Positions 433-14,636 of a stretch of 64,000 bases of DNA are shown here, in pieces; position 1 is the stretch's first letter; each line of letters starts with the position of its first letter. The DNA is from Roseibium aggregatum IAM 12614. Its GTDB lineage: Bacteria; Pseudomonadota; Alphaproteobacteria; Rhizobiales; Stappiaceae. The notes beneath the pieces were generated by a model, which saw only the letters and a list, made by a program, of their open reading frames with translations, had not been told where the DNA came from and made no database searches. The translations under genes and the position numbers were made by a program. Location: assembly GCF_000168975.1 (NCBI RefSeq), contig NZ_AAUW01000012.1:1-64000 (forward strand). Reading direction: 5' to 3'.

Positions 433-1023
433 ATGCTGCTTCTTATCGTTAATCTCGGTTCACTCTTCCCCAGGGCTCCCCTAGTTCGAAAAAACCTGGT
501 AGTAGCTCTCTCCCCGAAACGCCGGTCGCAAATGGGTTGCGATGCGTGTTTCGACTTCGGCTTCACCCACCAGCTCAGTCTGGCAGGAAATAGGAGGTAG
601 CCGACCATGACTTTCATGCACAACAATTCGGCTCTCCGCGAAGCCGCACAAGATCTCCCGATACACAACGCTTGAGTTGGGTAACCGACCGCCTGCGTGA
701 TGTCTGACATTCGACATCCGCCGGAGTTGGTTCCCTTCTGCTGTCTCGTCGTGACCTCACCGGTCATGGCGCGCAGTTTCTGTTGCTGATGTCGGGAAAC
801 GATACCCACTGATTGTCGTTTTAACCGGCACAGCAACTCTCCCCTCAAGTGTTCGAGTTTCGAACCCGCCACTGCGCGGGAACAGGAGAATTGTGCCATG
901 TGGAATGCATTGAACCGTATCTGCTCGCTTGCCCAGTCCGGGCTCTGCCGATGCCGGTGGTTCCGCCTGCTGAATTGCTGCCGTGAACAGTCACGTCAGG
1001 ACCAAGTAGGAAAGGAAACCACC
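433..1023. other. Non-coding leader region upstream of tnsA
   Basis: Nearly 600 bp with no convincing gene on either strand. This is where one end of the Tn7-like element and the tnsA promoter should lie. Short inverted repeats are visible: GATGTC/GACATC around 700-719 and GTTCGA/TCGAAC around 851-865. I did not find a clear TGT...ACA terminus or an array of similar TnsB sites. A good ribosome-binding site, AGGAG at 884-888, precedes an ATG at 898 that is in frame with tnsA. Confidence 0.45.
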
Positions 1024-1698
1024 ATGTCCAACGACAACTTTAATTTCTTCAAGTCTCGCAAGCCGTCCAAGCGTTCTCGCAGGGGAACCCTGAAGTCCTC
1101 TGCCTCGTCCCGGAGCTTTTACCCGAACGACACCCTGGACAGCTGGGCCTTCTGCGAAAGCACCTTGGAGCGAGAACTCCTGACCATCGTGCTTGTGCAC
1201 CCCAGCGTCGTCGGGGTTCAGGAACAGCCTGAGGCTGTCACCTACATCGACGACGACGGCAAGGAGCGGACGCATACGTTCGACTTTCGGATCCGTCTCT
1301 GCGACGGCCGGACGATCGTTGTCGACGTCAAGGCTGACAGCCGGCGCTTGAAGAGCGGGATCGATGAGGTTCACCGGCTCATCCAGGAGCAGCACCCCGG
1401 CTATGCGGACAAGTTCATTGTCCGCACCGATCGCGAGATCTCTCGCGACGGTGTCCGGAACGCAGAGCTGATCCTGCGGGCACGCACCCTCTGGGATGAG
1501 GAAGCCATCGAAGAGCTGCGCCGGCACCTCGCCTCGATGCACGGGGTTTTCCGGTTGGCTTCTCTCGTCGCCCTCTTCGACAGCGAAGCCGCCGGTTTCA
1601 ACGCCGTCCTCAACCTCATCGACGCCCAGGAGCTGAAGCCGGTGACCCGCGGTCGGATCAACGACAACACCGAGCTTGAGATCTGCAAGGCCGCTTAA
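1024..1698 (+). CDS. tnsA: TnsA-like transposon endonuclease
   Basis: In Tn7-type transposition TnsA cuts the 5' strands at the element ends, as partner of TnsB. The 224-residue protein has the restriction-endonuclease-like pattern of TnsA: glutamates in ESTLERELL (E45, E49, E51), QEQPEAV, then D87 in HTFDFRI and K103 in VDVKAD. Downstream is a winged-helix-like C-terminal part. The ATG at 1024 is preceded by AGGAAAGGA at 1008-1016, the same site used by the next two genes. An in-frame ATG at 898 with its own AGGAG would add 42 residues containing five cysteines, so a longer form is possible. It starts the operon, 18 nt before the next gene. Fairly sure of family. Confidence 0.85.
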   Translation: MSNDNFNFFKSRKPSKRSRRGTLKSSASSRSFYPNDTLDSWAFCESTLERELLTIVLVHPSVVGVQEQPEAVTYIDDDGKERTHTFDFRIRLCDGRTIVVDVKADSRRLKSGIDEVHRLIQEQHPGYADKFIVRTDREISRDGVRNAELILRARTLWDEEAIEELRRHLASMHGVFRLASLVALFDSEAAGFNAVLNLIDAQELKPVTRGRINDNTELEICKAA

Positions 1699-1716: not shown

Positions 1717-2313
1717 ATGACTGAACTCACCGGCAACAACCAGATCGCAGATGTGGCCTCCGGATCCGATACTCGGATCCGGCTCGATCCCGAAGCAAGG
1801 ATCTGGATCAATGGACGCCCGTACGTCGTGGTGACGTTGGATGAAACGACCAACGTGCTGCGGCGTGTGGACCTCCCTCGCGTCTTCGCGCGTTTCACCG
1901 ACGCCGACCTCAGGAAGCTGATTGCCCGAGGTCGCTTGATCCAGGACTACGGAGCGCTTTCCCCGTTCGAGCGTAGCCTCCGGTACAATCCGGAAGTTAC
2001 GTTCTGGCACCTGGACCCGGATGTTGCCGATAGCGTGATTTTCCGGATGTACTTCTGCTTTGGGCTTCTTGAACTGGACCGGAAGGGGAAGCTCCCGCGA
2101 GGCGATGCCTCCATGGAAGTCGCGATCAGCCAAATCTACGAACGCTGGATGCGCCGGATTTCAAAGTGGGAAGGTTCCTGCCGGCGTCTCCCCACCAACA
2201 AATGTCCGAAACCTAGAACCGTCCGGGATTGGCTTCGGAAATTCGAAGCCAGTGACTTTGAGCCCATGGCGCTCTGCCCGCAGCAACACAAGCGCATCAT
2301 CTGGAGCCGGTGA
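1717..2313 (+). CDS. Stand-alone paralog of the TnsB N-terminal DNA-binding region, no DDE domain
   Basis: This 198-residue protein lines up along nearly its whole length with residues 1-206 of the TnsB encoded just downstream. Shared blocks include MxELxxNQI, VLRRVDxPxV, the L(I/V)AxG segment and, near the C-terminus, a helix-turn-helix-like stretch (TVRDWLRKFEASDF here, TVRRWLQKYEAANF in TnsB) followed by MALCPxxHK. It stops where TnsB goes on to its RNase H-like catalytic domain, so it should bind DNA but not cut or join it. The leader AACAGGAAAGGAATT and the first codons are also repeated before tnsB, which points to a tandem duplication. It could modulate end binding, repress the operon or bridge TnsA and TnsB; no function is shown. 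Confidence 0.85.
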   Translation: MTELTGNNQIADVASGSDTRIRLDPEARIWINGRPYVVVTLDETTNVLRRVDLPRVFARFTDADLRKLIARGRLIQDYGALSPFERSLRYNPEVTFWHLDPDVADSVIFRMYFCFGLLELDRKGKLPRGDASMEVAISQIYERWMRRISKWEGSCRRLPTNKCPKPRTVRDWLRKFEASDFEPMALCPQQHKRIIWSR

Positions 2314-2378: not shown

Positions 2379-4562
2379 ATGCTTGAACTCAACACGAACC
2401 AGATCGTCGCCTCCACGTCCGCCTCGCGGATCCGCTTCGCTCCCCATTCCGAAGTCATCATCAAGGGAGTTTCGTATACCGAAGTTCTCTCTGATAAAGA
2501 GTTCTGCGTTCTGCGGCGCGTCGACAACCCGGACGTCCACAAGAAGTTCACTTACGTTGAGCTGAACGACCTTGTCGCGCAGGGACTCCTTACTGAGGAA
2601 CGAGGCGCATTTGACCTCTCCAAGCAGGCTCTCAAGATCGGTCCCAACGTCAGGCTTTCCGACCTGAAGCCGGAAGTCGCGGAACTCGTTCATTTCCGCC
2701 AGTTCATCTGCGATGAATTTCTCAAGATGGAAGCGGCCAGTGAGGCGTCGCGCAGTGACGCAGCGCTGGAGCTGGCGATCGCGATCCTCCATGGCAAGTG
2801 GAGCACTCTGCTTGCGCAGCGTGCTCCTGGGACCCGGTTCAGCAGCCAGCAGACGAAGGGATCTTTCGGGATTCCGAGACCCAGCACCGTCCGCCGGTGG
2901 CTTCAGAAGTACGAAGCGGCAAACTTCAATGTGATGGCGCTATGTCCCATGAAGCACAAGTGCGGCAACCGGTCGGATCGCCTTCATCCGGACGTCCGGG
3001 CGCTTCTGCGCAATGGCGCTTTGGAATATGCCAGCCTCCTGAAGCCGACCATGGAGAAGGTCTATGACAAATTTGTCGAACATTTCGACGGGCTGAATGA
3101 AGCCCGCGCCGAAAAAGGGCTGCCGGCCCTGCCGCTGCCGAGCAAGGCGGCAATGCGTGCGGAAATTCGCAAGCTGGCGCCCTATCACGTCGATGCCGGT
3201 CGGCATGGCGTCCCGTTTGCGAAGAAGAAATACGCCTACATTCAGGGCAAGCATGACCCGGAATGGCCCTTGCAGCTCGTCGAGATGGACGAGTGGCAGG
3301 TCTCGCTTCAAGCGCTGCTCCAGGGCGATCCCGTTTGGGAAGGGTTGGGCATCACTGCAAAGAAGGAATTGGACGAAGAAGTCGGGCGCATGCAGCTCTC
3401 AGCGGCCATCGATGTTCGAACCAAGTGCATCCTGGCGATGCAGCTGGCTCGTACGGCGACTGCTGATCTCGCCATCGCCACTTTGAAAATGGCAATGACC
3501 GACAAAGGCGATATCGCTATGGCCTCAGGTTGCGACACCCCCTGGGATATGGCCGGTCGCATCCAAATGGTCCGCGTGGACAACGGTTCGGCTTATCTTG
3601 CCGATGCATTCAGCACCTCAGCGATCAATGCCGGGATTGCCGTCGACTACGCCGTTGCCGGCGCGCCCCATCTACGCGGCTCAATCGAGCGTGTGTTCAG
3701 CAGCTTCCACACCGGTGTCATTTCGCTCTTTGAAGGACGCACCTTCACCAATGTCGTGGACAGGGGAGAGTACCAGGCAGAGGCTCGAGCGACTCTCACG
3801 ATTGATAAGCTCAGTGAGGCGCTCGTGCGGTGGGTCGTCGATGTCTACCACAATACTCCCCATGGCGGCCTGGGCGGCCGCTCGCCAAGGGAGGTCTGGC
3901 TTGAACTCAAAAACAAGGTCGGTGTCCCTCTGTCGCCCCGGGAGGACGAAATGCGTGCCTGCTTCGGGATCACCGTTGAGCGCGATCTCCGCAGTGAAGG
4001 TATCCAGCTTTACTGCAACAAGTACCAGTCCACGGAGCTTCAACGCATTCGTCGGGAGTTTCGTCTCCGGAAGAAGTTGAGGGTTCGCTTCGATCCGGAC
4101 GATATCGGACACATCTCCGTCGAAACGCCCAAGGGCTGGCTCAAGGTCCCGTGCACCACGCCGGAGATGCATGGAATTCCGCTGGAAGCGCATGTCGAAA
4201 ACCGGCAGCGCATGCTGGCAAGATACGGTGAAGAAGCCGCCCGCTCTGCCCCGATTGTCAAAAAGGCCCTCGCCGACCTTCGTCGTCTTGCAGATGAATC
4301 CCGCGCCCGCCGCGGCATCGCATCGCCGGTCTTCACCGCCACCAACCTCGCCCATCTCGAAGCCCATTTCTCTGACGACCGTGTGCGGGTCGATGAGGCG
4401 TTCGACGGCGACATCCTGGGGCTCGATGAACCCGATGACGCCGGAGTGGCAGGTGATCCGGGAGCTGCCGGTGAGACCACCGCGTCACTGGTCAGGGACT
4501 CCATGCCGTTCCTGGGCGACGACGATGATGACGATGACTTCGAATATGTTCTGGAGGACTGA
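2379..4562 (+). CDS. tnsB: TnsB-like DDE transposase
   Basis: TnsB binds the element ends, makes the 3'-strand cuts and joins them to target DNA. The 727-residue protein has an N-terminal DNA-binding region (about 1-210), a linker, an RNase H-fold integrase core with D304 in EMDEWQ, D401 in VDNGSAY and E437 in SIERVFSSF (35 residues between the last two), and a Mu-transposase-type C-terminal beta region. The protein ends in an acidic tail with seven aspartates in a row, fitting a TnsC-contacting tail. An ATG at 2310 is in frame, but the 2379 start has AGGAAAGGA at 2362-2370 and matches the start of the upstream paralog. It is followed 1 nt later by tnsC. Confidence 0.9.
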   Translation: MLELNTNQIVASTSASRIRFAPHSEVIIKGVSYTEVLSDKEFCVLRRVDNPDVHKKFTYVELNDLVAQGLLTEERGAFDLSKQALKIGPNVRLSDLKPEVAELVHFRQFICDEFLKMEAASEASRSDAALELAIAILHGKWSTLLAQRAPGTRFSSQQTKGSFGIPRPSTVRRWLQKYEAANFNVMALCPMKHKCGNRSDRLHPDVRALLRNGALEYASLLKPTMEKVYDKFVEHFDGLNEARAEKGLPALPLPSKAAMRAEIRKLAPYHVDAGRHGVPFAKKKYAYIQGKHDPEWPLQLVEMDEWQVSLQALLQGDPVWEGLGITAKKELDEEVGRMQLSAAIDVRTKCILAMQLARTATADLAIATLKMAMTDKGDIAMASGCDTPWDMAGRIQMVRVDNGSAYLADAFSTSAINAGIAVDYAVAGAPHLRGSIERVFSSFHTGVISLFEGRTFTNVVDRGEYQAEARATLTIDKLSEALVRWVVDVYHNTPHGGLGGRSPREVWLELKNKVGVPLSPREDEMRACFGITVERDLRSEGIQLYCNKYQSTELQRIRREFRLRKKLRVRFDPDDIGHISVETPKGWLKVPCTTPEMHGIPLEAHVENRQRMLARYGEEAARSAPIVKKALADLRRLADESRARRGIASPVFTATNLAHLEAHFSDDRVRVDEAFDGDILGLDEPDDAGVAGDPGAAGETTASLVRDSMPFLGDDDDDDDFEYVLED

Positions 4563-4563
4563 G

Positions 4564-5658
4564 ATGCAGACTGAAATGACCCACGATGAAACTGCCGCGG
4601 CTGAAGCGCCGGCACAAAATGAAGGAACCCACCATCGACGAAAGCGCAATTCGGAAGTCGCGGTCCTTCAGGCGCAGCTGAAGCACACGTACTACCCGCA
4701 CGCCCGTGACCGTGCGCTTCTCGACCAGCTCAACAAGCTCTTGGACGATTTCGAGGATTTTGATGAAATTGCCGACCAGGCGGGTCTCAGCCGCGTTGGT
4801 CGGCTGAACGAAGGCCGGGCCGTCGTCGTCGTTGGCGAATCCGGTGCCGGCAAGTCCCGCTCTCTGGAGCGCGCCTTTGCCAAACTCGGGATGACCGACC
4901 GATCGGACAAGACCTTTGTCGTCTCCGTCCGGGCTCCCTCTCCGTGCAACCTCAAGCAGCTTGGCATCGAGATCCTGGATGGCCTGCGCTATCCGGTTGA
5001 ACGTGACCTTCGGGAAAACGTCGTTTGGCGCCTGGTCCGGGAACAGCTTGCCATGCGTAAGATCAGCTTCCTGCACATTGATGAATTGCAGCATCTGACA
5101 CAGCTGAACAACCCGGCCGAAGCCCTCAAGGTGTGCGATACCCTCAAGGGCCTGATGCAGAATTCGGATTGGCCGATGTGGCTGATCCTGTCCGGCATGC
5201 CCAAACTCGCGCACATCATCGAGAGTGACTTCCAGCTGCGCCGCCGCAGCACCTTTGTTCGCCTTGACCAGCTAACCACCTGCAAGGAAGACCTGAAGGA
5301 AATCCGAAACGTTCTCGGCAATATTGGTCAAAAAGCGGAATTGACCCTCGACGACCTTCCAATTCAGGAACTCGCCAGCCGTCTGCTCCATGGCACTGAG
5401 GGTCGCCTGGGATATCTCATTGAGGTCGTCCAGGAAGCTTTTTCCCTGACGCTGCAAGAGGGGCGGAAGACCCCCCTCATGGGTGATTTCGAGCGAGCCT
5501 ATGAGGCCAAGACCGGTTGCCGCCCGGAGCACAACGTCTTCGCCGACGGCGTCGAGTGGCAGAACGTTGACGTCCGCAACACGCTCTTTCCCGACCAGGA
5601 CATCGAGGAAAAACCGAACCCCGGCAATCGACGTCGTAACGCCGTGCGAGGCGCATGA
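4564..5658 (+). CDS. tnsC: TnsC-like AAA+ transposition regulator
   Basis: TnsC is the ATPase that links the target selector (TniQ/TnsD) to the TnsAB transposase. The 364-residue protein has Walker A GESGAGKS at 91-98 and Walker B FLHIDELQHL with D173/E174. Sensor-type segments (ILSGMPKLAHII) and an arginine-rich RRRSTFVRL follow, typical of the TnsC/TniB family. The ATG at 4564 follows the tnsB stop by 1 nt, with GGAGG at 4553-4557 inside the tnsB tail, so the two are probably translationally coupled. The long upstream extension of the frame is only tnsB in another phase. The basic C-terminus (GNRRRNAVRGA) overlaps the tniQ start. Confidence 0.9.
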   Translation: MQTEMTHDETAAAEAPAQNEGTHHRRKRNSEVAVLQAQLKHTYYPHARDRALLDQLNKLLDDFEDFDEIADQAGLSRVGRLNEGRAVVVVGESGAGKSRSLERAFAKLGMTDRSDKTFVVSVRAPSPCNLKQLGIEILDGLRYPVERDLRENVVWRLVREQLAMRKISFLHIDELQHLTQLNNPAEALKVCDTLKGLMQNSDWPMWLILSGMPKLAHIIESDFQLRRRSTFVRLDQLTTCKEDLKEIRNVLGNIGQKAELTLDDLPIQELASRLLHGTEGRLGYLIEVVQEAFSLTLQEGRKTPLMGDFERAYEAKTGCRPEHNVFADGVEWQNVDVRNTLFPDQDIEEKPNPGNRRRNAVRGA

Positions 5659-7520
5659 GCATGAAACTCGATCCCTTCTACGTCCCCACCTGTCACCCGG
5701 AAGAAACCCTCACGAGCTTCGTGTCGCGCGTCGCCGCCATGGCATCTCGCAGTGCCCGCGACTTCTGCCTCGACATGGGCCTGAACTTCCAGTCCCTGTG
5801 CGATGGCGACCAGAACGCGGTTGGCGCCTTCGCCGAGCTTGCCGGCTTCGATAACGGAAGTTTCCCGGGCGCCATTCTTGAGCGCACCGGCGACCGTTCT
5901 TTCAAGATGAACGCCGAACCCCTTCCCAGGGCGTCGCTTCGCCGCTCGACGGTTCGCGTCTGTCCTCACTGCATCAAGGCAGATCTGGAGTGCAGCGCTG
6001 ACCATGAGAGGGTTCGGCCATATGGCCGCTGGTCCTGGATGATTGCATCCGTCCGGACCTGCTCGAAACACAATACGCCTCTGATCGTGGCCGCGAACGA
6101 CGATAACCCTCAGATGCTGCACGACTTCTCGCAGCATCTTCAACCCTTTGCGGAGGAGATCGACCGGCATGTTGCCGAGGCACGTGACCGGATGCCGTCG
6201 GACTTCGAGACCTATGTCCAAAGCCGCATCAAAGGCCAACCGTCCAAGTTCTGGCTCTCGTCCCTCCCCGCCTACGCCGCCGCCCGGTTCTGCGAAATCA
6301 TCGGAGCCACCAAGATCCATGGCGCCCAGGTGATGGCGGAGAGCCTGTCGGAGGACCAATGGTACGACGCCGGCCAGGCCGGCTTTGAGATTGCCGCACA
6401 TGGCCCCGAGAGCATCCGGGTGCACCTCAACGACATGCAGCGGGCATTCATGCAGACGCGACACGCGTGGGGCCCCAAGCAGATCTATGGACGTCTCTAT
6501 GAATGGTTGGCGCATGAAACCGGCGACACCGCTTACGACGCTCTCCGCGAGATCATCACCGAGCATGCTTTCAACACGCTGCCCATGGGACCTGACGACG
6601 AAATCTTCGGCAAACGACCGGTCAAACGGATCATTCACTCCATCCACTCCGCCCACCTTGAAACCGGCGCCCATCCAAAGCGGCTTCGAAAGGTTCTCCA
6701 TGCGGTCGGTTTGATTGCTGATGAACAGATTGCCCTGTCAAACGAACGAACCCTGTTCCGTGCCGACGACGCCAAGTTCTATCTGGACCGGATCGAAGAG
6801 AGCATGTCCCTCAAGCAGGCCCGGGCCTACATCAACGCGCCTCGTCCCGTTGACCGGCGACTGTTCGAGGCAGGTATTCTGAAGCCCTGGCTCCAAGGCG
6901 GAACAGATGTCTTCAAGAACCATGCCTTCGCAAAACGCGATCTCGACGAATTCCTGTCAGCGTTGGCTGCTGGAACAGCGCCAGTAACGGATGAAGAAAA
7001 GTCCTTGGAGCCAATCCTGCGTGCAGCGAAGATGGCGAACTGCTCCACACTGGAAGTCGTGCAACTGATCCTGGACAATCGCCTGGGCACGATCCGAACG
7101 GATCCGGACCTGACTGGCTTTCTTGCCGTACTCGTCGATCCGGAGGAAGTGAAGTCACTTGTCCGTCGGGAGGACCACGGCGGATATTCGCTTCGCGAAG
7201 TCGAGCAGAAGCTGAAGACCACGACATGGGTGATCAAGGCGCTCATCGAGCAAAATCACCTTGAGGCTGAAATCGCGGTCAACCCGATCAACCGCTGCCC
7301 GCAGACCATCGTGAAGCGAGACGTCCTGACCGCCTTTATGGACAAGTTCGAGACCGCCAGTTCCCTTGCCCGCAGATCGGGGTCTCATCTCCAGACCATG
7401 ATGAAACGCCTTGATGGTTTGGGCGTCGGCCCCGCCTTTCCCAAGGACCAGATCCCGGCAACCTTCTATGCGTTGGACCAGGTCCGGTTAGCCGATCCGG
7501 ATCTCATTCCGGCGCCCTGA
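5655..7520 (+). CDS. tniQ: TniQ/TnsD-family target-selection protein
   Basis: TniQ-family proteins recognise the attachment site, or a guide complex, and recruit TnsC. The 621-residue protein opens with the family hallmark PxPxxxETLTSFVSR-like segment (HPEETLTSFVSRVA). It carries a zinc finger with C103-P-H-C106 and C136-S-K-H139. The remaining 480 residues lack Walker or nuclease motifs and include several helix-turn-helix-like stretches, for example SLRKVEQKL-type and SLKQARAYINAP. Its size fits TnsD-like rather than short Cascade-linked TniQ proteins. The ATG overlaps the tnsC stop (ATGA). It is the last gene of the operon and is followed by a strong terminator. Confidence 0.85.
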   Translation: MSMKLDPFYVPTCHPEETLTSFVSRVAAMASRSARDFCLDMGLNFQSLCDGDQNAVGAFAELAGFDNGSFPGAILERTGDRSFKMNAEPLPRASLRRSTVRVCPHCIKADLECSADHERVRPYGRWSWMIASVRTCSKHNTPLIVAANDDNPQMLHDFSQHLQPFAEEIDRHVAEARDRMPSDFETYVQSRIKGQPSKFWLSSLPAYAAARFCEIIGATKIHGAQVMAESLSEDQWYDAGQAGFEIAAHGPESIRVHLNDMQRAFMQTRHAWGPKQIYGRLYEWLAHETGDTAYDALREIITEHAFNTLPMGPDDEIFGKRPVKRIIHSIHSAHLETGAHPKRLRKVLHAVGLIADEQIALSNERTLFRADDAKFYLDRIEESMSLKQARAYINAPRPVDRRLFEAGILKPWLQGGTDVFKNHAFAKRDLDEFLSALAAGTAPVTDEEKSLEPILRAAKMANCSTLEVVQLILDNRLGTIRTDPDLTGFLAVLVDPEEVKSLVRREDHGGYSLREVEQKLKTTTWVIKALIEQNHLEAEIAVNPINRCPQTIVKRDVLTAFMDKFETASSLARRSGSHLQTMMKRLDGLGVGPAFPKDQIPATFYALDQVRLADPDLIPAP

Positions 7521-7573: not shown

Positions 7574-7611
7574 GTGCCTGCCGTCCAGATTTCAAGGACT
7601 TAGGCTTCTAT

Positions 7612-7733
7612 TGAGCCAGATTATTCATGTATTTGAGTACGACTTTGGCCGAAACCCGGGAATGACTGAGCCAAAATTGAAAATAAAGCTGTTTAATTTC
7701 AATGACTTATTTTCTCCATGAGCCATACTATGC
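7612..7733 (+). repeat. Three TGAGCCA-type direct repeats, possible TnsB sites
   Basis: TGAGCCA occurs at 7612-7618, 7667-7673 and 7719-7725, spaced 55 and 52 bp apart in an AT-rich stretch. The first and third copies agree further, TGAGCCAnnnTATnCAT. Repeated sites of this spacing are what a transposase-bound Tn7-like end looks like. The same motif was not found upstream of tnsA, so this is only suggestive. Confidence 0.35.
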
Positions 7734-7853
7734 ATTCACGTACACGGCCAGCACCGGCCGGAGGTTTGGATTTGATTGCTTTCAAAGCTTAGCCGGGAGT
7801 TCGCCCAGGCCGGTGTCCACCAGCCACAGCGCGGCTCCCGGCGCCCAGACGAA

Positions 7854-7983: not shown

Positions 7984-8557
7984 TTTCACGCCCAGCGGGA
8001 TCGTCTGGGTCATATAGGCCGACGTCCCCTCCAGATGGTTTTCGGCAGCAAATTCGCGGCAAACCTTGACGCGTGTCGAGACAGGCCTCTGCCCGAGCTG
8101 GAAATTGTAGCCCGCTCCCGAGGGTTTGACGAATGGCCGGAAAACAGGTCCTGGGCAATCGGCCCGGCTCTTCGCCTGGTGAGCAAGTTCGTTGCCTCCT
8201 TCGAAGAACATCCGCCCCGTACCGCAAGTTTCTCCGCTTCGGATGACGATATGTCGACCCGGATCATGAGTGCCGCTTCGCCGCCTCAATAAACTCAGCC
8301 GTCCACAACCGGTTATTCCTAAAGTCCCAGTTATGATCTTCCGGGCCGTCGGATCTGGAACCATCGGTTCCGGCAACCCCAAAAAGACAAGTTCCTGCGT
8401 TCGGTCAGCAAAACTTTTTTCTCTCAATAGCGTGTCGGGTTGCCCGCCAGTCAACGCCATCACCTCGTTCCCATCTCCTCGAATCGGCCGATTGTCATCC
8501 GACTCCTTGTCAGGCGTCTTGAAATTGAGCTTGCAACCAATGAATGCAGGATGAACA
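7984..8557. other. Gene-poor stretch, possible gene remnant
   Basis: About 570 bp between the palindrome and the caspase-like gene. Open frames exist on both strands: 103 and 94 codons forward, and a 223-codon reverse frame spanning 7894-8565. None resembles a protein I recognise and none has a clear ribosome-binding site. It may hold a decayed gene and the promoter of the caspase/hydrolase pair. Confidence 0.35.
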
Positions 8558-10363
8558 ATGCCCAATCAAAACTGGAGGAGGAGGCCCCAGTTGGTGAAAC
8601 TTTGCTTGACCATCGGTGTGTCCAGAGCCCCACCGCTCTCCTATTTGCCTGGCGCTATTACAGCAGCGAAGGAAATGAAGGAATGGGCTGAGCGGTCGGG
8701 TTATAGGACGACGATCCTCACGGATGACGGGAAAGTATCCGTTACAGTCTCCCGCATTCGCACCGCGCTTCTGGAGCTCCTTCCGGAAAACGACATCGTG
8801 AATGCGTTCGTTTTGCATTTTGCCGGCCATGGCTACCGCGCCGGAGCAGAACAGAACATGTGGCTCCCAAGCGACTGGAACACCGAATTACGTGCAATAT
8901 CGGTAGAAGGTTTGAAAAAGCGCCTCTATGGCCATGGCATCGAGAACCTGACCATATTGAGTGACGCTTGCCGTTCGCTTCCATCCAGCGTGGATATCGC
9001 TGATCTCAGTCAGGATTCGGTTCTGCCACGGGGGCCATACGACCCTAGTTTTCCGATCATCGACCGCTTCAACGCCGTCACGGACGGTAGAGAGGCGTAT
9101 ATGTTGCCGGGCGATGAAAACGCCCCTGCCCGGTGTATCTTTTCTTCCGTTTTGCTCGAAGGCCTCTCTGGCCATCACGATGAAGCGTTCGACAAATACG
9201 TCAGTGACTGCGTTACCTCCGAGTCACTGGATCTTTTCAGCAAAACGAGAATGAAAGAGATTAGCGAACTTTATCGTCTCAAGTGCGCTCCCGAAAATAC
9301 AGTCGGCACCCCAAGGGATCATTTCATCTATTTCCGCCGCGACAATCCCGGAAACGGCGATGCCGCGACATTGCGGTGGCCCGCACCGCCGGAAACGCCA
9401 TCGGCACCAAGTGCCGGGGCCGAAATCTTGAAGCATGCGCCGCCTCTGAAAGATGAAGCGCTCTTTGAATTAGCGCCGGCTCCACCCAACGAGAGGCAGC
9501 CTCAAGACATCCGACAGAGCTTCCGTCTTGGAAGAGAATATACAAATGACGATGTTAATCTCGTCATCCTTGGGCCGACGCCGACAAGAATCTGGACAAC
9601 AGAACACGCAGCCGACACCGGAAATAAGGTACGCTCAAGCGAGTATAAGGTTGAAGTTTCACCTCAAAGCACGACCCAGATCCTGGTCGAGTTCAACGAC
9701 GGTATCTTTGCATCGGCTGTTGTCTACGATCAGCTTCTCACCGTCCTGAGCCGTGATGAACATGGGGTGATCGGTTGGGCTTGCGCCAGTCGTTGGACCG
9801 AGGCGCAGCCCCAGATCAACTCCTCAATTGACGCCATTTCCAACCTTCAGGCGGGAAGCCTTTCCGCCGACCAGGTCGATAACATCGCCGCCCAACTTAG
9901 AGAGATGAAGCACGTAAACCCAACGTTAGGGGCGATATCGAGCTATCTTTACGACTATAGCGGCGACATCGACAGCATTCGTCGGATGGCTTACTTCTAT
10001 TGCCTCTACGGTCAGGGCATCCCTTTCGATATTGCCTATATGGGACTGTTGCCCTTCCACAGGAACGCACCAGTCTACGCGACCGATGTCCCTCCAATAG
10101 CCGCGCGTAACGCCACTCCGGAAAACGATAGATTGCCTGAATGGGTCACGAGACGCACCGACCCGATTTCCGGTTTCGTTGCAGGCCTTTGGCCTTGGCT
10201 GCGCCAGGGCTGGGAGTTTGTCGAAGAGCCGGAAAATGAGGAAGCTATTCCTGCGGAACACATTCGAGACGCCATTCCTTATCTGCTCCCATCCCAGTTC
10301 ACGTCCTTTAGCCGAGATGGCGCGGAAATTTTGATCCGAAAGTTTCATATGGAGGGAAACTGA
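8558..10363 (+). CDS. Caspase-like (peptidase C14) protein with large unknown C-terminal region
   Basis: The N-terminal 230 residues have the caspase p20 fold signature: LTIGVSRAP and LPGA near the start, the catalytic histidine in HFAGHG (H91) and the catalytic cysteine in DACRS (C138), each after a hydrophobic strand. Bacterial relatives are regulated cysteine proteases, several in anti-phage systems. Residues about 310-601 form a second region I cannot name, containing SYLYDYSGDIDSIRRM and YGQGIPFDIAYMG, perhaps sensor or substrate. The ATG at 8558 has a weak site, while GGAGGAGGAGG at 8575-8585 would favour TTG 8591 or GTG 8594 and a protein 11-12 residues shorter. Its stop overlaps the start of the hydrolase gene, so the two are coupled. 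Confidence 0.8.
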   Translation: MPNQNWRRRPQLVKLCLTIGVSRAPPLSYLPGAITAAKEMKEWAERSGYRTTILTDDGKVSVTVSRIRTALLELLPENDIVNAFVLHFAGHGYRAGAEQNMWLPSDWNTELRAISVEGLKKRLYGHGIENLTILSDACRSLPSSVDIADLSQDSVLPRGPYDPSFPIIDRFNAVTDGREAYMLPGDENAPARCIFSSVLLEGLSGHHDEAFDKYVSDCVTSESLDLFSKTRMKEISELYRLKCAPENTVGTPRDHFIYFRRDNPGNGDAATLRWPAPPETPSAPSAGAEILKHAPPLKDEALFELAPAPPNERQPQDIRQSFRLGREYTNDDVNLVILGPTPTRIWTTEHAADTGNKVRSSEYKVEVSPQSTTQILVEFNDGIFASAVVYDQLLTVLSRDEHGVIGWACASRWTEAQPQINSSIDAISNLQAGSLSADQVDNIAAQLREMKHVNPTLGAISSYLYDYSGDIDSIRRMAYFYCLYGQGIPFDIAYMGLLPFHRNAPVYATDVPPIAARNATPENDRLPEWVTRRTDPISGFVAGLWPWLRQGWEFVEEPENEEAIPAEHIRDAIPYLLPSQFTSFSRDGAEILIRKFHMEGN

Positions 10364-11223
10364 TGAAGGTCTTGATGATACACGGCATTGGGCAGGAAAG
10401 TTCAACCCAAAAAGAGCTTCTCGAAAAGTGGACTGAGAGCCTTCACAAGGTTTCGCCCGGGCTTCTTGCGAATGCAGAAACACGGATGGCCTACTACGGC
10501 ACGACACTGGCGAACTGGGCCAATGGTGATACGGCCGTGGGAATGGGGACAGGTGCAACCGATGTGAACATCGGCGACGCAGACGAGGTTGCCTTTCTTA
10601 CATCCGCACTTCGAGAAGCGGCAGAAGTTCAAAATCTGACGGATGCAGACATTGCCTCGGCGGAACAAGACGCTGCTGAGGCCGTTGCAATGGACAGCAT
10701 GACGGGCCGGTTTCTTGTCGGCCTTGTGCGCGCACTGGAAAAGATTTCTCCGCTGAAGGGCTCCTTGTTGCTCCGCGTCGTAAAACAGGGACACACCTAC
10801 CTGTCCTCGCCTGGAGCCGGCACGGCGGTCGACAATCTTGTCAGGCCTTACCTGAAAGAAAGCCCGCAAGTTGTCATCACACATTCGCTGGGAACGGTGG
10901 TCGCGTTCAAACTGTTGCGAGAAATACAAAAGAGTGGCACGGACATCGAGATCCCGCTCCTGATAACAATGGGATCACCGCTAGGCTTGGAGGCATTCAA
11001 GAAGAAACTCGGTCCGCCCCGGTTGAAGCCGCAGTCCGTAAAAAGATGGATGAATTTCTACGATCCGTCGGACTTCGTCTCACTCGGCAAAGCTTTACAT
11101 AAGGAATTTGCAACAGGCATCGAGGACGATGGCACGGTCGACAACTTCACCGATAATGCCCATGGCATCATCGGTTATCTGCCGCATCAGGGTGTGGTGC
11201 AGGCGTTAAAAGCCGTACTTTGA
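10363..11223 (+). CDS. Alpha/beta hydrolase paired with the caspase-like protein
   Basis: The 286-residue protein begins with the oxyanion-strand motif MKVLMIHGIGQ. It has a nucleophile elbow THSLGT (S175), an acid in NFYDPSDF (D234 or D237) and a late histidine in DNAHGII (H267), a complete lipase/esterase-type triad. There is no signal peptide, so it should be cytoplasmic. An insertion of about 110 residues between the first strand and the nucleophile probably forms a lid; it includes an alanine- and glycine-rich part. The start codon shares one base with the caspase stop (TGATG) and uses GGAGGG just before. Substrate is unknown; it could be an effector released or cut by the caspase, or a peptidase. 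Confidence 0.75.
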   Translation: MKVLMIHGIGQESSTQKELLEKWTESLHKVSPGLLANAETRMAYYGTTLANWANGDTAVGMGTGATDVNIGDADEVAFLTSALREAAEVQNLTDADIASAEQDAAEAVAMDSMTGRFLVGLVRALEKISPLKGSLLLRVVKQGHTYLSSPGAGTAVDNLVRPYLKESPQVVITHSLGTVVAFKLLREIQKSGTDIEIPLLITMGSPLGLEAFKKKLGPPRLKPQSVKRWMNFYDPSDFVSLGKALHKEFATGIEDDGTVDNFTDNAHGIIGYLPHQGVVQALKAVL

Positions 11224-12844: not shown

Positions 12845-13059
12845 GTGACGTAGCCTTGGACCGGCTGGCATTCTGTCGAAAGCGGCAGAAAAAACTCTTG
12901 GCCGGTCAGTCGAAAAAGTTGGAGCCCCCTACGGCATGCTGCCGACCAAGGTTACTCTTCAAAGGGGCGGTATCCGCCAGTGGCGGATACCGGGCGTGTG
13001 CGGTTGGAGGCCGCGGGGAAGACTTGATCTGGTGCGGATCCTTGTCCTGCACCGCAAAC

Positions 13060-14355
13060 CTAGTGAAGCGCTGAAACGGTGACATCGGCCTTTTGGCCGC
13101 CTGTCCTGGTGTCGACCGCGACCACCACCGACATGCCCGCCCGCAGATGGCCGCTCGTGATTTCCTCTTCCGGAACCTTGATCTTCACCGGGACGCGCTG
13201 AACCACCTTGGTGAAGTTGCCGGTCGCATTTTCCGCCGGCAGCAGGCTAAACACCGAACCGGTGGCAGGGGCAATGCTTTCGACAGTTCCGCGGATCGGC
13301 TGGTCCGGATAGGCGTCGACGGAAATTTCTACCTCTGCCCCGGGCTGAATGCCCTCAAGCTGGGTTTCCTTGAAATTCGCGTCGATATGCGTGTCGGCCA
13401 GCGGCACGATTGCCGCAATCCGGCTGCCCGGCTGCAGCAGGGAACCCACCTGGGCGGCCCTGTTGCCGACAATCCCGTCGACAGGTGCCCGAATGACCGT
13501 GAAGGCAAGATCGCGTTCGGCCTTTTCAAGCGCGGTTTTGGCAGCAACCACCGCCTGCTCGGCTTCCTTCTGTTGCCCGTTCAGCACATCGATGTTGGCT
13601 TTGGCAAGCGTTACCGCTGCCTGGGCATTTTCAAGATCCGCCTGAGCCCCTTTCAGCGCAGCGTCTGCGGTATCGAGTGTTGCCTGGCTGGCAAACTTGT
13701 TGTCCGCCAGCTTCTTCTGGCGGTCAAAATTGGCGGAAGCTTCGTCTTTTTTTGCCGTGGCTGCCGCAACAGACGCTTCAGCCTGTTGAACGGAGGCCTT
13801 GGCAGCCGTGATCTGGGTTGCGATGCGATTGACCGTCGCCCGGGCGCTGTCGATGGAGTCCTTGGCCGACTGAACGGCCAGCTTGTAGTCCCCGTCATCG
13901 ATCTTCAAAAGGACGTCGCCAGCCTTCACACGCTGGTTGTCGCCAACGGCAACCGATGCAACATAACCGGAAACCTTGGACAGGATCACGGTTATGTCGG
14001 CAGTCACATAGGCGTCGTCCGTGCTGGCGATAAATCTGCCTTCGGTCCACCAGTGATAGGCTTCATAACCACCGAAACCGAGGCCCGCGAGCAGGATCAG
14101 CGTAAAGACCCGCTTGGCCTTGCCCTTCTTTTTGGGCGGAGGTGTTTGCTCAGACGCTGTTGAAATCGACACCTGGGCCTTCGACGGCACAGCCACCTGC
14201 CCGCCCTTGGCCTCGCTCGCGTCTTTGGTATCGGACGGTGTTGCCTGCTTGCTTTCTGCGCTGTCGGCAGTCTTTCCGTCATCCTTCTGGGGGCTCGCGG
14301 TCTGCGGCCCGCCACCGATCGCACCGCTCTCGTTGCGGCCTTCTCTGAGTGCCAC
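13060..14355 (-). CDS. EmrA/HlyD-type membrane fusion protein
   Basis: This is the periplasmic adaptor that connects the MFS pump to the outer membrane. A hydrophilic N-terminus of about 90 residues, low-complexity and rich in K, S and T, precedes one membrane helix (FTLILLAGLGFGGYEAYHWW). After it come the biotinyl-lipoyl half motif (STDDAYVTAD, VSGYVASVAVGDNQRVKAGDVLLKID), a long alpha-hairpin rich in A, K and Q, and the second lipoyl half (IRAPVDGIVGNRAAQVG). The GTG at 14355 follows AAAGGA at a good distance; the longer frame reaches into the promoter and operator and is less likely. Length 431. The extended cytoplasmic N-terminus is longer than in E. coli EmrA. Confidence 0.88.
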   Translation of the reverse strand: MALREGRNESGAIGGGPQTASPQKDDGKTADSAESKQATPSDTKDASEAKGGQVAVPSKAQVSISTASEQTPPPKKKGKAKRVFTLILLAGLGFGGYEAYHWWTEGRFIASTDDAYVTADITVILSKVSGYVASVAVGDNQRVKAGDVLLKIDDGDYKLAVQSAKDSIDSARATVNRIATQITAAKASVQQAEASVAAATAKKDEASANFDRQKKLADNKFASQATLDTADAALKGAQADLENAQAAVTLAKANIDVLNGQQKEAEQAVVAAKTALEKAERDLAFTVIRAPVDGIVGNRAAQVGSLLQPGSRIAAIVPLADTHIDANFKETQLEGIQPGAEVEISVDAYPDQPIRGTVESIAPATGSVFSLLPAENATGNFTKVVQRVPVKIKVPEEEITSGHLRAGMSVVVAVDTRTGGQKADVTVSALH

Positions 14356-14392
14356 GATGGTATCCTTTGCCCAAATTCTTGACCGCTCAATC

Positions 14393-14415
14393 ATTGACTG
14401 AACGGTTCGGTCAAT
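14393..14415. promoter_or_regulatory. TetR-type operator upstream of the efflux pair
   Basis: ATTGACTGAAC and GTTCGGTCAAT form a 23-bp near-perfect palindrome around one G, with one mismatch. It lies 38 bp upstream of the membrane-fusion start. A related core, TGAACGGTTCGG, recurs at 14637-14648, nearer the divergent TetR gene, so one repressor could control both directions. Confidence 0.7.
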
Positions 14416-14636
14416 GGCATTTATATGTTCAATATCCCAGTCAGTGCAAGGGTTGCGGCAAATTTTTTGCGGCGCACACAAGCTCAAACCCATTGAGCAA
14501 CCGCGATAGACTGACAAGGAGAAAGGAATAAACGGCAGTGGCCTTTCATGATCGCCACCCGGGAGAATGGATTATGCTGGCCGGTCCCTCGTGGCTTTAC
14601 AACCAGCTTGCTGTTGCAGGTTCGAGCAGGAAAGAT

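Follow-up and report, generated by a model that had tools for sequence, protein, structure and literature searches.

What role can be assigned to a gene that encodes the N-terminal part of the transposase TnsB and stands beside a complete tnsB in the same operon? We analyzed such a gene in the marine bacterium Roseibium aggregatum IAM 12614, in the first 64,000 nucleotides of contig NZ_AAUW01000012.1 (the window). It occupies positions 1717-2313, and we refer to gene and protein by the working name short. The host element is Tn7-like, with TnsA, the DDE transposase TnsB, TnsC and a TniQ/TnsD protein encoded in one operon, in the order tnsA, short, tnsB, tnsC, tniQ. Its features are as follows.

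552-1023, plus strand: conserved leader upstream of tnsA, about 470 bp, without a TnsB-like site
1024-1698, plus strand: probable tnsA, endonuclease subunit, 224 residues (Pfam PF08722, NCBIfam TnsA_like, synteny with other tnsA genes)
1717-2313, plus strand: short, stand-alone TnsB N-terminal paralogue, made up of the N-terminal beta domain plus DBD1 and ending in a conserved HKRIIW[SN]R tail
2379-4562, plus strand: tnsB, full-length DDE transposase, 727 residues (Pfam rve and Mu-transpos_C; DDE columns invariant)
4564-5658, plus strand: tnsC, AAA+ ATPase, 364 residues (Pfam AAA_22, 8e-17; TniB, 2e-13)
5655-7520, plus strand: tniQ/tnsD-like target selector, 621 residues (Pfam TniQ, 1e-17)
7607-7626, 7629-7648, 7662-7681 and 7714-7733, minus strand: four right-end TnsB-site-like repeats, core TGGCTCA
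7722-7744, plus strand: right terminus ...GCCATACTATGCATTCACGTACA, repeated imperfectly and in inverted orientation at the left termini TGTCCGTGACGGCATAGGATGG of genomes G042 and G015

The tnsA matches (E 3e-4 for PF08722, 2e-10 for TnsA_like) do not reach the curated cut-off of either library; similarity and synteny nevertheless agree on the assignment. The tnsB gene is intact in the window, starting with an ATG at 2379 behind its own Shine-Dalgarno sequence and running to 4562, and its product is probably active, because residues D304, D401 and E437 occupy invariant alignment columns. A gene for an AAA+/FtsH-like M41 protease lies directly upstream of the tns operon in element groups (8224-10371 of locus L015; its 3' part only at 1-432 of the window). 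Just beyond the right end of the transposon, two overlapping genes at 8558-11223 encode a protein with a caspase domain and another that resembles hydrolases; the pair may form a defence module. The fetched elements gave no Rfam match, and the single tRNA in the window is distant.

The short ORF encodes 198 residues. BLASTP aligns it to TnsB 1-194 with 38% identity and 57% positives (E 9e-39), and profile-profile comparison with hhalign gives a probability of 99.9% (E 9e-34, 183 columns), so that homology to TnsB is highly significant. The first-pass annotation had extended the alignment to TnsB residue 206; the homology holds, and its last residue is TnsB 194. There the sequences diverge, TnsB continuing HKCGNRSDRL and short ending HKRIIWSR, the final six residues of which (RIIWSR) have no TnsB counterpart. 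The annotation was right that the product stops before the DDE domain: it terminates after DBD1, and both the catalytic domain and the C-terminal region that contacts TnsC are absent. Judged by its sequence, short is a conserved stand-alone TnsB paralogue and no transposase. A sequencing artefact or a split tnsB can be dismissed, since the gene recurs in five genomes, ending at the same point in each, and a full tnsB follows it. We also considered a programmed -1 frameshift fusing short to TnsB, the two frames being in a -1 relation with a GTGA overlap. No slippery heptamer is visible near the stop codon, and the 23 open codons that lead up to the tnsB ATG are not conserved between lineages, which further disfavours a fusion.

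We found short in 5 of 45 genomes of the genus, that of the window included, and its placement directly downstream of tnsA and upstream of tnsB is fixed throughout its clade. The proteins form two subfamilies, one from the window and Roseibium suaedae (G044; 95%), the closest relative by its tns locus, the other from G042, G015 and G009 (47-48% to the window protein), and all terminate in MALCPxxHKRIIW[SN]R. Between the subfamilies, dN/dS is about 0.32 for short and 0.10-0.15 for TnsB, rough values given a dS (about 1.3 for short) near saturation. None of 2000 neutrally simulated pairs kept both copies of short stop-free, and of the 503 stop-free simulations for the close pair, 5 gave a dN/dS as low as that of short. 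These comparisons argue clearly for purifying selection on short, weaker than that on TnsB. A non-functional relic of a tandem duplication would account for the faster evolution of short relative to TnsB, and for an in-frame TAG at a tryptophan codon of tnsB in two of the five elements (residue 320 in L018 of G044, residue 487 in L017 of G009). In both of these genomes short is intact, as is the remainder of tnsB. The ORF, end and spacing of short, however, are kept across about 50% protein divergence, and with the dN/dS of 0.32 and the simulations this makes a relic scarcely credible. In a decayed relative (L037 of G003, 12872-14462), a deletion has removed short and all of tnsB except its 3' third, which comes directly after tnsA.

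In trees of the shared N-terminal region, the five short proteins form a single clade with support of 100/99. Its neighbours are the five Roseibium TnsBs (90/87, or 98/98 when further TnsB columns are included), and TnsB of the close relative G814, the nearest from a locus without short, branches outside both (98/96). The topology therefore indicates a single duplication, after the G814 split and before the two Roseibium subfamilies separated, and identifies short as a partial tandem duplicate of tnsB with one origin. Ribosome-binding leaders of the same kind (AACAGGAAAGGAATTTGAACATG-like) precede short and tnsB, and thus the duplicated unit apparently took in the start region. In G814 and ten other close relatives, tnsA lies immediately before tnsB, often overlapping it. 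Among 56 fetched loci with a TnsB-like ORF, a small ORF matching the N-terminal profile occurs in the four Roseibium loci only and in none of the 52 other Tn7-like loci. The sample comprised close relatives and TnsA-bearing loci from Alphaproteobacteria and Pseudomonadota genome samples, with one genome per species, and is limited enough for rarer occurrences to be compatible with this result. A profile-independent within-locus comparison of 62 of the 66 loci yielded no further TnsB N-terminal duplicate; its match in L123 is by eye a pair of TniQ-like proteins, and those in L033 are not part of the tns operon. A search of viral contigs gave no relative, the plasmids searched held only full TnsB N-termini (about 22%), and R. 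suaedae was the sole match in the genome contig search. Surveys of Tn7-like elements mention duplicated TniQ/TnsD and extra TnsC, and no stand-alone TnsB N-terminal gene, in the portions covered here (PMC10293859, PMC8649781; subscription papers and supplements were outside the scope). Within that range, the statement of the first-pass annotation that no described Tn7-like operon is known to carry such a gene stands, as we found none, described or sampled, outside the clade of short.

How much of the DNA-binding apparatus does short retain? We mapped domain limits by aligning the TnsB profile with VchCAST TnsB (9y7b), in which DBD1 spans residues 37-113 and DBD2 residues 125-184 (PMC13370975). 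short covers the whole of DBD1 (Pro-113 of the Vch protein corresponds to its Pro-188) and terminates inside the linker. The earlier description of short as the DNA-binding half of TnsB was therefore too generous, only the beta domain and DBD1 being present, with the terminus at the DBD1/linker boundary. In ShTnsB, base-specific contacts come mostly from the linker and DBD2 (PMC9371665) and to some extent from DBD1 (PMC9527255). Because short lacks the linker and DBD2, its stand-alone DNA binding may be weak or non-specific, and the claim that it binds the same DNA as TnsB is unsupported as stated. An AlphaFold model of short from a five-row alignment is of middling quality (pLDDT 68, pTM 0.46) and places a small beta barrel at residues 28-77, together with helices and a helix-turn-helix (HTH). 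It was compared with solved TnsB structures, a model of full TnsB made without an alignment reaching a pLDDT of 37. The top three Foldseek matches are E. coli TnsB on Tn7 right-end DNA (7pik; E 0.0015-0.005), and VIA-align gives a modest Z of 7.1 over the barrel; MscS, Spindlin and Tudor entries were taken as common small-barrel matches. Between short and its cognate TnsB the HTH is the best-preserved stretch, with 18-21 of 30 residues identical (60-70%), followed by the barrel (26-30 of 63) and the middle (20-34 of 80-87, 25-39%). The preserved HTH is consistent with a retained DNA-facing surface.

We also mapped the element. Just past tniQ, at ...GCATTCACGTACA (window position 7744), the elements cease to be homologous to one another. 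The left end of the window copy lies off the contig and was read from relatives: in G042, G015 and G044 it starts with TGTCC... and lies 20-24 bp downstream of the stop codon of a gene that we take, from its C-terminus, to be the class II ribonucleotide reductase nrdJ. The element thus has TGT...ACA ends with arrays of TnsB-site-like repeats, two being visible on the left. A matrix scan of the window recovered the four right-end sites with scores of 11-22, which are not independent evidence since the matrix was trained on the end sites themselves, and a weaker match (10.8) inside tnsB at 4129. Target duplications of 5 bp were read from related insertions, not from the window copy: CCCAG (G015), ACCGC (G042) and, beside the end of a second element, TTGTC (G044). 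Elements L059 and L063 likewise adjoin annotated adenosylcobalamin-dependent reductases. This Tn7-like family, including elements of Paracoccus seriniphilus and Rhodobacter CZR27, apparently uses the 3' end of the B12-dependent ribonucleotide reductase gene nrdJ as its attachment site (L015 7427-18154 with flanks, L059, L063), a site that is not mentioned in the portions of the two surveys covered here (PMC10293859, PMC8649781).

In R. suaedae, the right end of the element is immediately followed by a second left end (at about L018:17687), and two related elements thus are, or were, in tandem at nrdJ. The shared nrdJ site and these adjoining ends could suggest a factor for target immunity or against competitors, marking or blocking the ends of related elements; the first-pass annotation had offered an immunity factor. 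The tandem array shows, however, that a resident end did not keep a further element from inserting beside it, and an active immunity role is unlikely because short lacks the C-terminus that contacts TnsC. We consider this reading very improbable.

The leader at 552-1023, common to all five elements, has a strong Shine-Dalgarno sequence and small ORFs (about 607, MTFMHNNSALREAAQDLPIHNA; 898, MWNALNRI...), and possibly exerts attenuation or leader-peptide control of the operon. A conserved leader of this length could also serve a transcriptional autorepressor of the tns operon, for which InsA (PMC12428005) and regulators carried by CASTs (PMC9938897) are precedents. Yet a matrix scan of 433-1023 detected no end-like site, the best score (2.0) lying below the background mean (5.1); a site for DBD1 alone could escape detection. 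Moreover, the ends are distant from the tnsA promoter in this layout. The earlier suggestion of a repressor is thereby weakened as far as the operon is concerned, and we regard autorepression as improbable, if less so than immunity.

Our preferred reading, to which we give a probability of about 0.4, is that short is a non-catalytic modulator that limits transposition to a low level by competing or mixing with TnsB at the element ends. It would be translated from the same operon as TnsB and would occupy the DBD1 half of TnsB sites, or join TnsB there through contacts of the N-terminal domain. Unable to cut or to recruit TnsC, which TnsB contacts through its C-terminal part (PMC9371665), it would dilute productive TnsB assemblies. 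It may thus resemble IS1 InsA or the P-element KP/66-kDa repressors in acting by end competition and not chiefly at its own promoter. InsA competes with InsAB' at IS1 ends (PMC12428005), and truncated P-element proteins (66-kDa/KP) repress transposition (PMC7776569); we favour competition because such N-terminal fragments are known to inhibit and because relatives manage without short. Homology with a conserved truncation point, purifying selection on a gene intact in 5 of 5 genomes, the HTH and Foldseek results and the four right-end repeats all fit a modulator. On the other hand, the main base-reading parts are missing, the model is middling, and the faster evolution of short would also fit a role unrelated to end binding.

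The main rival is a positive, obligatory structural subunit, in which short would fill non-catalytic or inner TnsB sites, or contact TnsA or TnsB, and be required for, or improve, assembly of the paired-end complex, as part of a subfunctionalised, heteromeric TnsB. It stands close behind because, without the linker and DBD2, short may not bind the ends on its own. The fixed operon position, the purifying selection and the tail RIIW[SN]R, foreign to TnsB and kept by both subfamilies, would suit such a subunit, and Tn7-like ends hold several sites of which only some carry catalytic protomers (PMC13370975). Against it, DBD2, which makes inter-subunit contacts in VchCAST (PMC13370975), is absent, and short is no general need of such elements, as 52 sampled relatives lack it. 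We consider this reading possible but somewhat unlikely, and its heteromeric form, with a DBD1-only paralogue as obligatory architectural subunit on some TnsB sites, slightly more doubtful; were it true, end binding and catalysis would be divided between two genes. Whether brake, as in the preferred modulator reading, or helper, a conserved operon-encoded TnsB fragment would offer a built-in handle on the transposase of elements that are being developed as insertion tools and whose control is known mostly for target selection. It also makes testable how far the N-terminal domain and DBD1 alone carry end recognition by TnsB.

We compared the Roseibium element to known systems. With Tn7 and Tn7-like elements it shares the order tnsA-tnsB-tnsC-tniQ, TGT...ACA ends with repeated TnsB sites, a 5-bp target duplication and an insertion point that lies a fixed distance beyond a conserved gene. 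It differs in the additional TnsB N-terminal paralogue, in an operon pointing to the end beside tniQ, the cargo lying on the opposite side, and, from Tn7, in an attachment site at nrdJ rather than glmS. InsA of IS1 is likewise a stand-alone transposase DNA-binding region without catalysis (PMC12428005), but it is made from the same frame without frameshifting, whereas short is a separate, diverged paralogous gene that lacks part of the DNA-reading surface. The Drosophila P-element KP and 66-kDa repressors are also N-terminal transposase fragments (PMC7776569); these unrelated proteins arise by internal deletion or splicing and have no dedicated gene in the autonomous element. Finally, CvkR of type V-K CAST and RtaC/RtbC of I-F3 CAST are regulators carried by Tn7-like elements (PMC9938897, PMC11406308), but these are recruited MerR/Xre transcription factors, whereas short is a paralogue of TnsB itself.
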